DNA of 64,000 nucleotides, taken from NCBI RefSeq assembly GCF_009720525.1, contig NZ_CP043930.1, forward strand, positions 186,001-250,000. The letters are read 5' to 3'. This document shows positions 11,665-20,529 of the stretch, in pieces. The translations under genes were made by a program, and so were the position numbers. The stretch comes from Gimesia benthica (lineage in GTDB: Bacteria > Planctomycetota > Planctomycetia > Planctomycetales > Planctomycetaceae). The stretch's first letter is position 1. Each line of letters opens with the position of its first letter. The notes under the pieces were generated by a model that worked only from the letters and a program-made list of their open reading frames with translations, ran no database searches and was not told the DNA's origin.

Positions 11665-11948
11665 TCTTAATTTGCACTGCACATTCATCTGAACAGGCTC
11701 TTCAAAAACCGTATTCTCAGCCGCCTTGCTGATCGATTGGCAGCCATTTCTCTGACGTCCCTGTCAAACCGCTGCACTCCCACACCTCACATAACCCACT
11801 GAAATACAGTCACTTACAACACACCCGACACTCAGTGGTCGTGAATGGCATGCGGTTCGCTTTTGCGAAAAGCATACAGAGAAGATTTGAAGCGCATCAA
11901 AATGATCGCAAGCTGATTCAGAGCAATCTGAGAAAAGGACATTCAACG

Positions 11949-14900
11949 ATGAACAGCGATAATGCTAATCTGGGTGAAACCAATCGTAATTCAGATGAGG
12001 ACGATGAACCGAGCAGTTTTCCGATCGTGGGCGTCGGTGCGTCAGCAGGTGGACTGGAATCCCTGGAGGAGCTGTTCACGAAAGTTCCCGTGAATAGCGG
12101 CATCGCTTTTGTCGTGGTACAACACCTGTCCCCGGATTTCAAAAGTGTAATGGATGAGCTTCTGGCGCGGCGGACTGACATCCCCATCCAACAGTCGGAA
12201 GATGGACTGCCGATCTCTCCCAATCGGATCTTTCTGATCCCGCCGAAGAAAGAGGCGATCCTCGCTGATGGACGTTTTCGTCTGCGAGACAAAGATCCCA
12301 AAGAAACCCTGACGCTACCCATTGATTATTTTTTCCGCTCACTGGCTCAGGAAGCAGGCTCCCGATCGATTGCGGTCGTGCTCTCGGGCAGTGGCAGCGA
12401 TGGTTCGCGCGGTATTCGCGACGTCCACGATGCGGGAGGACTGGTGATCTGTGAAAGTAATGAAACTGCAAAATTTGATGGAATGCCCCAGTCGGCACGA
12501 GAAACGGGACTGGTTGATCTGATCCTGAAACCAGCGGAAATTGCAGGGGCCATTGAAAAGCATGTCACCTTTCACAGCAACAGCCTGACTTCGAATCAGG
12601 TTGAAGAAAAACCGCTGGACGAGGGAGTCGAACTGATCTTCGGGCTCCTGAACCAGGAATACGGCATCGATTTTTCCCATTACAAGTCCAGCACCGTCGG
12701 CCGGAGAATTCAGCGTCGTCTGCTGATGCAGCAGGTCGATTCGATCAATGACTATGCAGAACAGCTGCGGGAGAATTCCCAGGAACTGAATTCGCTTTAC
12801 ATGGACCTGCTGATCGGCGTCACCCGTTTCTTCCGCGATCCGGAAGCGTTCTCGATTCTGGAAAAGAAGATCATTCCGAATCTGCTCGACAGTATCCCGC
12901 CTGAAGAAGAAATCCGTATCTGGATCGCCGCCTGCGCAACCGGGGAAGAAGCATATTCCATCGCGATTCTTTTCCACGAACAACTCGAAGAACGCAGCCG
13001 CCCCATCAACATCAAGATCTTTGCCACCGATGCACATAAAGCCTCACTCGAGTTTGCCAGTGCGGGTAACTATGAAGAAGACGCCTTCAAGGAAGTTTCC
13101 GACAGACGTCTGAAACGCTACTTCAATAAAACACAGAAGGGTTACTCTGTCGATCCGGACCTGCGTAAAATGATCGTCTTCGCACCCCATAACGTGTTGA
13201 AAGACGCTCCCTTTACCAAGCTGGATCTCATCTCCTGCCGGAACCTGCTGATCTATTTCCAGAGCCGGGCACAGAAACGGGCTCTGTCCCTGTTCCACTT
13301 TGGCCTCAAAGCCAACGGCATTCTCATGCTGGGCCCCAGTGAGTCCCCCGGGGAACTCTCAGATGAGTTTGAAGTGATCGATGGACACTGGAAGCTATAC
13401 CACAAACGTCGTGATATCCGTCTGCCCGCGGATATCCGAGGCCCGTTGACCCACACCAGTCTGACTTCAACCAAAGTCGAAGAAACCAGGCAGCCCGCAA
13501 CTAAGAAACGCGAACTGATGGATATCAGTCTGCTGGGTGCTTACGACTGGGTCCTCGCACATCACATGCCGGCTGCTGTCCTGATTGACGAATCCCGCGA
13601 ACTGCTGCACGTGTTCGGCGACGCGGAAAAATTCATGAAGATCCGCAAAGGCCGTCCGAGTAAAGACGCACTCGATCTGTTTACAGACGATCTCCGCACA
13701 GCGCTGCTGGCAGCCATGCAGAGCATCAGCAAAGACCAGGTTCCCGTCTGCTATAGCGGCATGCGCGTCGACTCGGGTAGTGCAGAGGGCCTGTATCGTG
13801 TCTCCATCGAGCCTGTCGAAAACAAACACGCGACTCAACAGCAGTTGTTGATTATGTTTGAAAAGATGGATGATGATGAAGCGGATACCAGCCGCGATTC
13901 GAGCTCCCACATGAAAGATTTCAGTTCGGAGCGCATCGCCCGGGAACGCATCAAGACTCTGGAAACCGAATTGCAGCACACCAAGGAAAGTCTGCAGGCC
14001 ACTGTTGAAGAACTGGAGACATCCAATGAAGAACTGCAGGCAGCGAACGAAGAATTGATCGCCTCCAACGAAGAGTTACAGAGCACTAACGAAGAGCTCC
14101 ATTCGGTCAATGAAGAACTCTATACCGTTAATGCCGAGTATCAGAACAAGATCAATGACCTGACGGACATGACCTCCGACCTGGACAGTCTGATGGAGAG
14201 TACCGATGTCGCGACCGTCTTCCTGGACGAAAACCTCTGCATTCGGAAATTCACTCCCCAGATCGGACCCATTTTCAAGCTGATGTCGCACGACATGGGC
14301 CGCTGCATTGACAGTTTCGCCCATCATATTGACCGCCCCGGTTTAATCAAAGAGATTCGAAATGTATTGCGGACAGGAGAACCGCTCGAAGAAGAAGTCC
14401 AGGATGATGAGGGACGCTGGATGTATCTACGCGTCCTGCCGTACCGCTCCAAGCGGGATCTGAAGGGCGTTGTACTGACTCTCATCGATATTAACACTCT
14501 GAAACGGACCCAGGATTCGCTGGCTGCGGCAGTCAAAAATCGCGAACAGTTCCTGGCCATGCTGTCTCATGAACTTCGCAACCCCATCAGTGCTGTCTTC
14601 AGTGCGTCTCGATTATTGAACAATCGCATCAGCGAAACTGAAGAATCGCAGAAAGCGGTTTCCGTCATCCAGAGACAGGCCGCTCACATGGCACGCCTGC
14701 TGGACGACCTGCTGAATATTTCACGCATGACCCAGGACAAACTGGAACTCCGTAAGAAGAAGTTTGATCTGCATGATCCCCTGCAGGAAGCCATCGAGTC
14801 GATGCTGCCTTCCATCAAACAGCAGGACCAGGAACTGGAACTGAATATCACAGACGATCCGCTGAACCTCTATGGGGATGAAGACCGCTTAAGGCAGGTC

Positions 14901-15692
14901 GTCGTGAATTTACTCGACAATGCAGTAAAATACTCATTTCGGGGCGATGTCATTCGAATGAATGTCCGCAAGGAGTCGGATGGTGCCGTTCTGGAATTAA
15001 AAGATAACGGTAAAGGGATCTCTAGCGAGATGATGGAAACCATCTTTGAACCGTTCGTCCAGTCGCATCGCACTCACGATGATCAGGATGGCGGCATGGG
15101 CGTTGGTCTCTCCCTGGTCAAATTCATCATCGATGGGCACGATGGCGACATTCAGGTCAAAAGCAAAGGCATCAATCGGGGTAGTGTCTTCTCGATTCGT
15201 CTGCCATTGCTGGAGCAACAGGATCTCAGCCAGATTGATGAAACATCCAATGGGGGGAACGGCAAATCGAAACCCTCAGAGGGGAACGGAAAATCGAGCA
15301 GTCACTCTCATCGCGAACAGTCCAGGCAACAGATCCGCAGCGTTGTGGTCATTGAAGACCAGCAGGACAACCGCGAGATGCTGAATGCCTTACTGGGCAT
15401 GGAAGGTTTCGACGTGAGTACCGCGGAGAACGGTAAAACAGGTCTCCAGCTCATTCGAAATACCGATCCCGATGCAGCAGTAATCGACCTGGGACTCCCC
15501 GTACTCAATGGTAATGAAGTCGCCCGCACACTACGATCCGAACGCGGTGACGACCTGTTTCTAATCGCCTTAACGGGCTATGGTCAGCCAGAAGACATCC
15601 AACGTGCAAAAGAGGCGGGATTCGACGAATACCTGGTCAAACCTTTGGACCTCGACCGACTGTTAGCCTTGCTCAAAAAAAGCGGTAATTAG
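11949..15692 (+). CDS. CheB-CheR-PAS-histidine kinase-receiver hybrid signalling protein
   Basis: Start chosen at ATG 11949 (AAAAGGA eight bases upstream), giving 1247 residues. Domains in order: CheB methylesterase (about 24-215, catalytic Ser in GVGASAGG near 32, His in QHLSP, Asp in GSGSDGSRG); CheR methyltransferase (about 225-500, SAM motif [11 protein letters not shown] near 328); a PAS-like region (545-660); a long coiled coil made of EELQxxNEEL repeats (about 664-739); a second PAS; HisKA with the phospho-His 874 in SHELRNP; HATPase; receiver with Asp 1180 and a KPLD lysine. All catalytic residues expected for each module are visible. Soluble, so the input is cytoplasmic. Its end overlaps the convergent CsrA-receiver gene by four bases. 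Confidence 0.9.
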
Positions 15693-16444
15693 ACCGTAGT
15701 GATTGAGCCAAACGTTTCCTGGCGAATCTGCCCGATCATACGTGCGGGATCCAGCGGCTTCTTGAACCAGCCATCCACACCTTCAGGACCGATGGCTACG
15801 CCGGCTTCACGAGGATCAGCACCACTGACGCCGAATACTTTCAGGTTTCGCATCCAGGGAGTTTGGCGGATGTGACGTACCGCCAGGGGACCATCACAGA
15901 CAGGCATCGCCATATCCAGCAAAACCACATCCGGCAGTTGATGTTCCTGCAGGTATTCCAGTGCCTCAACACCATCGCCGGCGGTCTCGACATCATAACC
16001 GAACGATTTCAGGCAGGACGCTAAAAGTTCGCGTTCGTTGCGATCATCGTCGACCAGCAGGGCACGCAACTTCTGTGGCGAGCGTTGCGCGGCCATGATT
16101 TTCTCAGCTTCTTTAAAGCCTTCCACCACGGTCTCCAGAGTTTTAGCTGCCTCAGCGTTATCGCCCTGATGAATCTGTAACTGAGCCAGGTAGACTGCCA
16201 ACCGTGCTGTGTTCAACCGGTTTCGCAGATCATGCTGACTCTTATTGACGAGCATGGAAGGTCGGTCAGCAAATGAGGTCGCGCTTCCTTGATTGGTAGC
16301 AACTTCCTCTCTCAAAATTTCCAGTTCACGAGGGGCATCAATGCCGATTTTGGCAACACCGCCTCGGATCTTAAGCACATTGATCGTGACACCGATGGAG
16401 GGAAAAACGATCTTTTGATCGGGACGTCTCGACAGTACGAGCAT
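15689..16444 (-). CDS. CsrA RNA-binding domain fused to a histidine-containing helix pair and a receiver domain
   Basis: The 251-residue product begins with a complete CsrA: MLVLSRRPDQKIVF, the IGIDAPRE strand and LREEV, with the RNA-contacting Leu 4 and Arg 45 both present. Residues 64-118 are a predicted helical hairpin whose first helix carries QHDLRNRL (His 71), like the H-box of histidine kinases; no ATPase domain follows. Residues 126-245 are a receiver with acidic pocket Asp 132-134, phospho-acceptor Asp 177 (LLDMAMP), Ser 207 and Lys 229 (FKKP). Ordinary CsrA has about 60-75 residues, so this is a fusion and not a read-through: it is one open frame with normal codon use. It likely lets phosphorylation control mRNA binding. 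It lies convergent to the CheB-CheR kinase, the obvious candidate partner. Confidence 0.88.
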   Translation of the reverse strand: MLVLSRRPDQKIVFPSIGVTINVLKIRGGVAKIGIDAPRELEILREEVATNQGSATSFADRPSMLVNKSQHDLRNRLNTARLAVYLAQLQIHQGDNAEAAKTLETVVEGFKEAEKIMAAQRSPQKLRALLVDDDRNERELLASCLKSFGYDVETAGDGVEALEYLQEHQLPDVVLLDMAMPVCDGPLAVRHIRQTPWMRNLKVFGVSGADPREAGVAIGPEGVDGWFKKPLDPARMIGQIRQETFGSITTV

Positions 16445-17012
16445 TGTTCGGTTCCTTTCCTGATCGAAATCGAACCATCTGGTTTCAACTTCGCATCTTT
16501 TCTTCGGATCACTGACCTGTGACGAGCGAGGTAAGCGGCGACGTCTTGTCGGCTTTCTCGCTATCAGTGAGCTTGAAGGGAATCCGTTCCGTTACACTTA
16601 CCGCGTCTGGAGTTTATGCCTCAGAATCAGATTGTCAATACAGGATCGTAAATAACCCTGAATCAAACTTATTTTCTGAATTCACAATCAGATTCGTTAC
16701 TCTCTCCAGTCATCTACCAAAATCATACCGATCACACTTTGAGTCTGTTATGACAGCTTGAAGAATGACTACATCTGTAGCAGCTCGTCTCGTTTGAAAT
16801 CAATAGGGCTGCACTACGACATTCTTACGCAGTGATCAATTTATTGATTTTGTTTTTTTTCAAGTACGGTCAAAACACACGATCTCAAAGACGATGTCCA
16901 ACAGTTTAAGAAACACACACTCGAAGCAAGCGTGTTGACAGCTGAACATTCTACGACCAGAATAGCGTTCATTGTCCTTTCTGAATTCCCCGATCCATTC
17001 GCAGGACCAGTC
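16445..17012. other. Intergenic region between the CsrA fusion and a small membrane protein
   Basis: The region is AT-richer than its flanks and has no convincing gene; the 80-codon frame at 16519-16761 lacks a ribosome site and any recognisable motif. On the minus strand the CsrA-fusion leader carries AGGAAAGGA just before the start. A five-base repeat, GGTTC 16450-16454 and GAACC 16472-16476, could fold so that an AGGA motif sits in the loop. Divergent promoters must lie here. Confidence 0.5.
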
Positions 17013-18717: not shown

Positions 18718-20529
18718 GTGAGTCTGCCGATCACACGACAGACTCAGTTTTCGGAGGATTTAGCCATAAATTCTTTTCAATACCACGCCCTGATTGTTGA
18801 TGATGAACCATCCCTGCGGCAATTGCTGGCCCGGGCACTGAGCAAGGTTGGTATTCGCTGTGATACGGCAGAAAACGGTATGGCTGCCCTGGATATGTGC
18901 CAGCGCCATACTTATGACCTGGTGATCGTTGACCTCAAAATGCCGCAAATGAATGGACACGCCTTATGTCTGCAGTTGATCCAACGGCAGGACCAGCGAC
19001 CGGAAATCTGTGTGCTCACCGGCATCATGCAAGACTTAATTGACGAAGATCTGCGGAAGCGGGGTATCAAACACCTCTATCGCAAACCCGTTGATTACAA
19101 AGAATTTTCGCAGAACATGCTGGAGATCCTGAAGAAAAGTGCCGCTGCTCACACAAAAGATTCGAAACCGATTCAAACGGCCTCTGCCGCCGCAACCCCC
19201 TCCAGCTCGAAGCACAATGTCGTTGTCCTGAGTCCCGACACGTCGTTCTGTCACCGTATTGTACTGGCTTCCGCTGAATCGCCCCTGGATGTAATCATCG
19301 CCCTCAGCACTGATCACCTGCTGGAGATTGTAAATGAAAAACGAGTTGATCTGCTGATCATTGATCAGGAAATCTCGGGATTCCTGCGGGGAAATCAGAT
19401 TGTCGAGCGCCTGCACGCAGACCTGATCAATATTCCCGCATTCCTGAGAGGCTCCCGGGATTCCATCGAACGACTCAACATCGATAACTGCCAGGGAGTG
19501 GAACGGACCATTGAAGAGGACACCAACGAAACCGAAATTCTGAACATGGCCTACGGCTTCATGTCGCGTCTTTCACACCATTGTCTGATGATTGATTCCG
19601 CGGCCCGCCGCCTGGTCACCGAATTCAGTGATGTACCTCCCATTCCACATGTACTCACCAGGCTTGCCGAACATGCTGCCCGCTCGTCTCTGGAAATTTC
19701 GATCCCGCAACTGGTCAGCGAAATTGAAACCGACTCGCGATTGACTTCCGAGTTGATCAAGGTCGCGAATTCATCACAGGTTGCCGCTTCATCAAAACAG
19801 AAAGATCTCAAAGGCATCGTCACCCTGCTGGGCCCCCGACAGGCAATTGCCATCTGTCTCTCGCTGGGACTGCGGACGGTCCACTCCAAACTGATGAAGC
19901 CCTGGGCGGAAGAATTTCGTCACTGGTATCTCAAACGCACCTCGCTGATCGCTGCCACTGCAGAATCAGTCGCCCGTTATTATGATTCTGTCCCACCGGA
20001 AACGGCCTACCTGCTGGGGATCCTGCAAGATATCGGCATCCTGGTGCTGGCTGAGCACTACGGGGAAGTCTATTTTGAGCGGGTCGTGAAACGAGTCCGT
20101 AATATCCCGACCTTACAGTTCACCACTTCCGAGAACATGGTCACCAATACCGACCATGGGATGGTCTCGGCAGCCGTGCTGCAATCCTGGAGTTTCCCGT
20201 TTTCCATAGTGCAGCCCGTGTATGCGCATCACAAGGATGACAGCGACATGAACCTGCCTATCATGACACAGGGGCTGGTCCGCTGCATGCGGGTCGCGGA
20301 AGCCTTCGCAGAGATGTGCGATCAGCCCGTCCCACAACGGATTTTAAAAGTAAATCAACTGCTATCTGAATATTACGATAAAGGAAGAATGGATTCGCAG
20401 GATGTCTTTCTGACCGCGATTGAAAAAACAAACAAGATGACGGAAGTCCTGCACACACCGCCTTTGTCCTCTGATGAACTGGAAAAAATTGTCAGTCAAC
20501 TTCGGGAAAGTGATCCAAAGCATTCATGA
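18718..20529 (+). CDS. Receiver-HDOD signalling protein
   Basis: Taken from GTG 18718 the product has 603 residues. Residues 22-135 are a receiver with Asp 28-29, phospho-acceptor Asp 72 (IVDLKMP), Thr 101 and Lys 123. About 165-285 is a second, degenerate receiver-like domain (LSPDTS, LLIIDQEIS) that lacks the acidic pair. About 300-500 is an HDOD domain (IPHVLTRLAEH, ELIKVANSS, LGPRQAIAICLSLGL, YLLGILQDIGIL). HDOD proteins tie signalling to regulation but their biochemistry is mostly unknown. The GTG has no ribosome site; GGAGGA at 18753-18758 points instead to the in-frame ATA at 18766. Its stop overlaps the next kinase gene (ATGA), so the two are coupled. Confidence 0.85.
   Translation: MSLPITRQTQFSEDLAINSFQYHALIVDDEPSLRQLLARALSKVGIRCDTAENGMAALDMCQRHTYDLVIVDLKMPQMNGHALCLQLIQRQDQRPEICVLTGIMQDLIDEDLRKRGIKHLYRKPVDYKEFSQNMLEILKKSAAAHTKDSKPIQTASAAATPSSSKHNVVVLSPDTSFCHRIVLASAESPLDVIIALSTDHLLEIVNEKRVDLLIIDQEISGFLRGNQIVERLHADLINIPAFLRGSRDSIERLNIDNCQGVERTIEEDTNETEILNMAYGFMSRLSHHCLMIDSAARRLVTEFSDVPPIPHVLTRLAEHAARSSLEISIPQLVSEIETDSRLTSELIKVANSSQVAASSKQKDLKGIVTLLGPRQAIAICLSLGLRTVHSKLMKPWAEEFRHWYLKRTSLIAATAESVARYYDSVPPETAYLLGILQDIGILVLAEHYGEVYFERVVKRVRNIPTLQFTTSENMVTNTDHGMVSAAVLQSWSFPFSIVQPVYAHHKDDSDMNLPIMTQGLVRCMRVAEAFAEMCDQPVPQRILKVNQLLSEYYDKGRMDSQDVFLTAIEKTNKMTEVLHTPPLSSDELEKIVSQLRESDPKHS
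18753..18758 (+). promoter_or_regulatory. Shine-Dalgarno GGAGGA aimed at a possible ATA start codon
   Basis: GGAGGA lies seven bases before ATA 18766-18768, in frame with the receiver-HDOD gene. A start here would leave six residues before the receiver domain's first strand, which is usual for response regulators, whereas the upstream GTG at 18718 adds 16 more residues and has no ribosome site. Confidence 0.35.

Follow-up and report, generated by a model that had tools for sequence, protein, structure and literature searches.

A conserved family of planctomycete response regulators with a CsrA output domain, probably fed by hybrid histidine kinases

RNA-binding response regulators are already known from the ANTAR proteins, and we describe here a conserved family of planctomycete response regulators whose output domain is CsrA. 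In these proteins a CsrA domain, a two-helix hairpin with a kinase-like H-box, and a receiver domain follow one another in a single frame; to judge from the sequences of 148 distinct members, the architecture is real, conserved, and constrained on both its CsrA and its receiver sides. Because the architecture is so conserved and constrained, and because the gene most often found next to it encodes a sensor kinase, the best reading of the family is that a two-component signal acts directly on RNA binding. A phosphorelay from hybrid kinases probably feeds the family, which in turn probably feeds back on its own translation. The linkage to kinases in all four orientations, the residue pattern of the H-box, and an ANGGAN hairpin in the mRNA leader are new here.

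Results

Architecture of the fusion protein

The protein from which this study started is encoded by a reading frame without internal stops in the window, the whole stretch of 64,000 nucleotides of Gimesia benthica DNA that was analysed. Its features are the following.

15689..16444, minus strand: fusion protein of 251 aa (CsrA, H-box helical hairpin, receiver), ATG start, one frame
16295..16444, minus strand: CsrA domain, residues 1-50 (Leu4, Arg6, Arg7, Arg45, Glu47), Pfam PF02599
16088..16261, minus strand: two-helix hairpin, residues 62-119, with the HisKA-like H-box QHDLRNRL (structure models and hhalign to HisKA)
16232..16234, minus strand: codon of His71, the proposed phosphotransfer histidine (His in 122/148 relatives)
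15698..16072, minus strand: receiver domain, residues 125-249 (Pfam PF00072 and structure match)
15914..15916, minus strand: codon of Asp177, the predicted phosphorylation site (Asp in 146/148 relatives)

The initial annotation had read this frame as a complete CsrA joined to a histidine-bearing helix pair and an intact receiver, and the open reading frame, the Pfam domains and the modelled helices all agree with it; Leu4, Arg45, His71, Asp132-134, Asp177, Ser207 and Lys229 were found at the positions that it had named. The CsrA domain matches PF02599 with E 2.4e-15 (56.7 bits against a cut-off of 27), and scores below the NCBIfam csrA equivalog cut-offs (41.1 vs 73 and 38.3 vs 70.1). It carries both Leu4 and Arg45, the latter equivalent to Arg44; an RNA-contact role is described for L4 and R44 of CsrA in PMC7652899. 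The receiver matches Response_reg PF00072 at residues 129-240 (E 6.1e-20, 71.9 bits against a cut-off of 30.2) and the structure 5uht_B (Z 20.3, 1.5 A over 119 residues), and combines the receiver fold with the acidic pair, the phospho-Asp, the Thr/Ser and the Lys. In the AlphaFold monomer (mean pLDDT 79.7 with 9 sequences; residues 1-4, 47-65 and 249-251 are of low confidence) two helices, 62-92 and 96-119, lie between the CsrA domain and the receiver, and the same hairpin is seen in a model of the hairpin fragment alone. A fold search with the whole model returned only receiver matches among its best 50. No match to HATPase_c was found by Pfam anywhere in the 251 aa, so that the helix with His71 indeed comes without an ATPase domain, as had been proposed.

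Distribution of the family

A search for CsrA-receiver fusions and their taxonomic range had been suggested as a check on the annotation. From the loci that were fetched we collected 150 fusions, of which two were dropped as duplicates, leaving 148 distinct planctomycete CsrA-hairpin-receiver proteins. With a threshold of E <= 1e-40 the fusion occurs in 78/297 genomes and 46/155 genera of the class to which the window genome belongs, the 78 including two genomes with partial matches only (G615, G659). Two scans at the family level (E <= 1e-38, partial matches included) found it in 61/149 and 15/43 genomes. In a scan of 392 genomes of the phylum, in which scoring was limited to 6 candidates for each genome, the listed matches starting in the CsrA part were all from the class of the window genome, from nearer relatives, or its own. 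The distribution is patchy, since 7 of the 14 listed genomes of the genus have a fusion and 7 lack one. A scan of contig collections with narrow patterns yielded at least 7 named fusion loci, the listed ones being MAGs that carry the labels Isosphaera sp., Thermoguttaceae, Pirellulales (two), Planctomycetota (two) and 'bacterium'. Two of these loci, L073 and L074, share their fusion with genomes of the class of the window genome (L216 of G491 and L262 of G722, respectively), which puts the window in Planctomycetota; on these grounds the class name Planctomycetia would depend on the Isosphaera label and general taxonomy. Among 72,556 plasmid records, none matched 80% of the query at a single place.

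The Gimesia benthica genome (8.03 Mb in one contig) holds a second fusion of 252 aa near 6.334 Mb (L009:2488-3246), 39-40% identical to that of the window, and here too (locus L188) the fusion gene converges with that of a CheB-CheR hybrid kinase. A frameshift or an assembly join between separate genes would be the trivial origin of such a protein; it can be ruled out, as the same three-part protein recurs at full length in many genomes and in a second copy in this one, and no frameshift was seen.

As a separate observation, the genome has thirteen CsrA matches, two of them in fusions and 11 in open frames no longer than 140 aa; well-known bacteria usually carry one to a few CsrA. A 239-aa relative with an H-box hairpin and a receiver and no CsrA match was also seen (L189:7263-7979, plus strand).

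Conservation of functional residues

On the CsrA side, Arg6 is present in 148/148 fusions, Arg45 in 147/148, Glu47 in 142/148 and Leu4 in 130/148 (it is substituted in the other 18), and position 7 is variable (R 89, K 33, G 11 of 148). Loss of the CsrA residues in all relatives, which would have spoken against a functional fusion, is thus the opposite of what is observed for Arg45. On the receiver side, Asp177 is found in 146/148, Asp133 in 138/148, Lys229 in 140/148, and Ser or Thr at 207 in 141/148. In the hairpin, His71 is retained in 122/148 and Asn75 in 114/148. Among the 26 fusions without His71, 24 retain Asp177; the two that do not (L304, L308) lie on long branches in the tree. Two short fusions of 186-190 aa (L249, L296) miss the hairpin altogether.

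Neighbouring kinases

The gene next to the fusion in the window encodes a CheB-CheR hybrid histidine kinase, a different protein that we propose as its partner.

11835..15692, plus strand: convergent hybrid kinase CheB-CheR-PAS-HisKA-HATPase-REC, 1285 aa (Pfam; start codon assigned mechanically)

The two frames meet tail to tail and overlap by 4 bases. Neighbouring genes in all loci were annotated with domain models seeded from this kinase and from the CsrA of the fusions. HATPase genes occupy 83/289 positions at ±1 of the fusions (41/146 at −1, 42/143 at +1), 19/246 at ±3 (9/124 at −3, 10/122 at +3) and 13/221 at ±4, and a sensor kinase is the commonest neighbour of the fusion. For 94/148 fusions a histidine kinase is encoded no more than two genes away, in all four orientations (upstream on the same strand 32, convergent 26, downstream on the same strand 20, divergent 16), with the proviso that these counts treat related sequences separately and do not represent independent events. 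As in the window, 65 of these 94 are CheB-CheR kinases, and 84/94 end in a receiver (that is, are hybrid) vs 19/41 of the other kinases in the same loci. The remaining 54 fusions lack a kinase at this distance; at least two genes were read on each side for 42 of them, and fewer on one side for 12. Elsewhere in the window, a 603-aa open reading frame (18718-20529, plus strand) opens with a stretch that is receiver-like as judged by eye.

We also considered whether the receiver of the fusions derives from that of the neighbouring kinase, and best-match counts do not support this origin. In a pool of 38 non-kinase and 117 kinase receivers, drawn from these loci only, 136 of 147 fusion receivers had a non-kinase receiver as their best match outside the fusions, 10 that of a CheB-CheR kinase, and 1 that of another kinase. 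The best of the 38 non-kinase receivers was always one of two proteins in which an H-box-receiver tail follows a different N-terminus: a methyltransferase in L303:1447-2922 (minus strand), and a part without Pfam match above cut-off in L295:519-1535 (plus strand). Since the tail is attached to other N-termini in these two proteins, it looks portable.

The histidine-bearing hairpin

The initial annotation had likened His71 to the H-box of a kinase, and the profile comparison upholds the likeness. The profile of the 122 His-bearing middle regions aligned by hhalign with a HisKA profile, built from 98 distinct stretches of the kinases that lie nearest in these loci, with a probability of 96.9% (E 1.9e-10, score 45.3), while the controls (reversed profile, two other kinase regions, 40 column shuffles) scored 12.73 or less. 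The match is carried by the H-box: the hairpin minus the H-box scores 11, no better than the controls, and descent of the hairpin from HisKA is therefore unproven. The 24 His-less middles are related to the His-bearing ones (97.6%), yet score 11 against HisKA. At the curated Pfam cut-off no HisKA match is listed for the window protein itself; among the 25 of 30 families listed, HisKA matches 7/24 family members, all weakly (best E 0.014), and each TPR family 1/24.

Residue by residue, the fusions have Asn at +4 from the His in 111/122 cases and Leu at +6 in 118/122. The acidic residue at +1 occurs in 49/122 fusions vs 97/97 kinases in which the motif could be placed (97 of 98), a comparison in which the search pattern for the kinases itself required the +1 acid. 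At +5, Pro is found in 97/97 kinases; the fusions mostly have Arg, Gln or Glu there, and Pro is absent from their eight commonest residues. According to PMC3510030, kinase activity in HisKA kinases depends on the +1 acid and phosphatase activity on the +4 Thr/Asn. The H-box of the fusions, as its residues read, has retained the His and usually the Asn and has often lost the kinase-specific acid; it therefore fits a phosphotransferase or a phosphatase that works without an ATPase domain. As for the role of His71, on which the initial annotation did not pronounce, the evidence is in favour of an HisKA-like element for phosphotransfer (or a phosphatase) that accompanies a hybrid kinase.

Two other identities were tried for the middle region, and both match less well than HisKA. 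SPOB_a, with a reference profile of 6 sequences, scored 21.8 (44%, E 2.3e-4, over 20 columns), and TPR scored 20.3 vs 45.3 for HisKA. The TPR matches of the window protein are all under the Pfam cut-offs (TPR_12, 20.2 of 30.1 bits, E 7e-4; TPR_19, 17.3 of 25 bits), as is that of the hairpin fragment alone (TPR_19, 19.6 of 25 bits, E 0.0012). A fold search with the hairpin alone listed generic helical hairpins, the DHp domains of DesK (Z 9.2) and HK853 (Z 7.8) standing among unrelated ones.

His71 and the type of kinase

The receiver at the end of a hybrid kinase needs a His step before the next receiver, and a phosphorelay thus predicts that His71 should accompany hybrid kinases. The nearest kinase within two genes of the fusions with His71 is hybrid in 83 cases and non-hybrid in 1 (none in 38); for the fusions without His71 the numbers are 1 and 9 (none in 16). 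The corresponding Fisher p of 9e-11 is valid only if all rows are independent, and two of the nine His71-less fusions beside non-hybrid kinases are the short, hairpin-less proteins of L249 and L296. Of the 15 non-hybrid kinases listed, 14 end 5-22 aa past the HATPase domain, and one after 50. In L244, L245 and L246 there are two fusions, one of each His kind, each next to the matching kind of kinase. Loci with one His71-bearing and one His71-less fusion are L077, L244, L245, L246, L249, L287, L293 and L296, and most of them lie around CheB-CheR genes.

On a tree of 146 fusions (the two short ones left out; branch support by SH-aLRT only), there are 8 changes of the His state and 3 of the kinase type, which provides 2 contrasts on supported branches and 3 on all branches. 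Of the 2 supported contrasts, on average 1 goes in the expected direction and 1 shows no difference, and with 2-3 contrasts the phylogenetic independence of the link is not significant; under a looser kinase rule there are 3-6 contrasts, with the same direction in 0.5 of 3 on average. With so few independent contrasts on the tree, the link between His71 and kinase type has low statistical weight and comes down to one or two independent events.

A shared hairpin in the mRNA leaders

Leaders were kept for 144/148 fusions (the others had an unreadable start or under 70 bases upstream), of which 135 have GGA 5-20 bases ahead of the start; after removal of near-identical leaders, 106 representatives under 70% identity remained. 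The motif A-N-GGA is found in 91/106 fusion representatives vs 102/366 other genes, whose starts were assigned mechanically, which may blur this control. When the loop was left free, stems of at least 3 pairs were counted in 63% of the 135 fusion leaders, in 27% of 373 other genes, and in 39% of flank-shuffled leaders; because of this last value a stem test with fixed geometry was chosen. In this test the pair counts, compared to those on re-pairing, were 40 vs 24.0 for pair 1, 73 vs 49.2 for pair 2, and 66 vs 52.2 for pair 3, where at least one shuffle reached 67. Pairs 2 and 3 occur together in 52 leaders vs 29.3 ± 3.2 on re-pairing (maximum of 5000 shuffles, 42), and the other genes have no such excess (22 vs 23.5). 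The excess of pairs 2 and 3 is still visible among leaders under 50% identity (35 vs 20.1, maximum 30), and at under 40% identity the count is within the shuffle range (11 vs 5.9, maximum 12). At the level of the family, then, the mRNAs of the fusions share a covarying ANGGAN hairpin on the Shine-Dalgarno site. The claim is made at that level because the copy in the window is a poor one.

16445..16476, minus strand: mRNA leader with AGGAAAGGA at the Shine-Dalgarno site, weakly paired counterpart of the family ANGGAN hairpin

Here AGGAAAGGAACC has at most two stem pairs, and RNAfold pairs it differently. Hairpins with an ANGGAN hexaloop are a known target of RsmE/CsrA (PMC7652899), and since the leaders share a hairpin of this type a CsrA protein probably binds them. 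The simplest candidate for that protein would be the fusion itself, in preference to a CsrA that stands alone.

Discussion

These results can be brought together in a model in which a phosphorelay gates the CsrA output of a planctomycete RNA-binding response regulator, with feedback on its own translation; we assign it a probability of roughly 0.56. The signal would be taken up by the adjacent hybrid kinase, and phosphoryl groups would pass from the kinase His to its C-terminal receiver, from there to His71 in the DHp-like hairpin of the fusion, and finally to Asp177. The phosphorylated receiver would then alter the binding of the dimeric CsrA part to ANGGAN hairpins on mRNAs, one of these being the leader of the fusion itself, which would close a negative feedback loop. 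The proposal of the initial annotation that a two-component signal acts directly on mRNA binding is in this way supported in part: the conserved architecture and the kinase neighbour speak for it, and each phosphotransfer step, like the gating of RNA binding by phosphorylation, is a step that we infer. More tentative, and in our estimate somewhat short of an even chance, is the fuller proposition that one polypeptide unites an RNA-binding output with the whole second half of a phosphorelay (the histidine phosphotransfer element and the terminal receiver), that a four-step His-Asp-His-Asp relay thus ends on mRNA and not on DNA, with its loop closed on its own hairpin, and that the H-box-receiver module is portable and serves other outputs too.

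The strongest competing explanation, which we nonetheless consider unlikely, is that His71 does not relay at all, and that the hairpin is a dimerising stalk with a built-in phosphatase that resets Asp177, the kinase phosphorylating Asp177 directly. CsrA and DHp domains are both dimeric, which counts in favour of such a stalk. So does the existence of fusions that dispense with His71 and still, in 24 of 26 cases, keep Asp177, as well as the retention in 111/122 H-boxes of the +4 Asn that is linked to phosphatase activity (PMC3510030). What this explanation leaves without account is the occurrence of His71 beside hybrid kinases and its loss where the kinase is non-hybrid, few as the independent events are, and the manner in which a hybrid kinase would bypass its own receiver. 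It is quite improbable that the CsrA part serves mainly as a sink or antagonist, which would tune other CsrA proteins, by binding regulatory RNAs or by pairing with CsrA subunits that stand alone, and would not repress mRNA targets of its own. Mixed dimers are possible, given the 13 CsrA matches in the genome and their mostly short frames; against this role, Arg6 and Arg45 are conserved as well as Asp177 of the receiver, and the mRNAs of the fusions carry a conserved hairpin of the CsrA-target type. Least probable is a TPR-like protein-interaction hairpin without phosphotransfer role, as the sub-cut-off matches that suggest it (TPR_12 and the TPR_19 fragment, profile score 20) are outweighed by the score of 45 against HisKA, by the 7/24 vs 1/24 members matched among the listed families, and by the coincidence of the conserved His, Arg, Asn and Leu with H-box positions.

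The phosphorelay model can be placed among known systems. Signal input into CsrA is known to come via sRNAs and, in other bacteria, via protein antagonists. The BarA-UvrY system, as described in PMC7652899, reaches CsrA through transcription of the sRNAs CsrB/C. The fusions share with stand-alone CsrA/RsmA/RsmE the CsrA domain with its Arg44 equivalent, the N-terminal strand and probably the ANGGAN hairpin targets, and csrA autoregulation is known there (PMC7652899); they differ in that the receiver, absent from the stand-alone proteins, is carried on the protein itself. In the ANTAR response regulators (AmiR, NasR, EutV, PdtaR) a receiver or sensor is likewise coupled to an RNA-binding output (PMC12471899; for EutV, PMC3369931), but they act by antitermination, with another output domain, and an H-box hairpin is not described there. 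The histidine phosphotransferases Spo0B, ChpT and PhyT, which derive from kinases, resemble the hairpin of the fusions in having a DHp-type His domain that relays phosphate without a working ATPase (PMC5898713, PMC3433190); they are, however, separate kinase-like proteins with a degenerate catalytic part, whereas the fusion hairpin has no catalytic remnant and is joined to a receiver and an output.

In the review PMC12471899, E. coli CsrA figures among the orphan response regulators, a label that does not suit this stand-alone protein. In the open-access literature searched, no description of a CsrA-receiver fusion was found, in keeping with the annotation, which knew of no described protein of this architecture; the older censuses of response-regulator output domains by Galperin, outside that literature, may list CsrA among them.

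A receiver-bearing CsrA would connect a sensor to translation directly and fast, in a genome with 13 CsrA matches. That such fusions are often encoded beside a sensor kinase suggests that signals from outside could be handed straight to messenger RNA instead of DNA. The family, with members that have or lack His71 and that stand beside hybrid or non-hybrid kinases, also offers natural experiments to test the gain or loss of a step in a relay.
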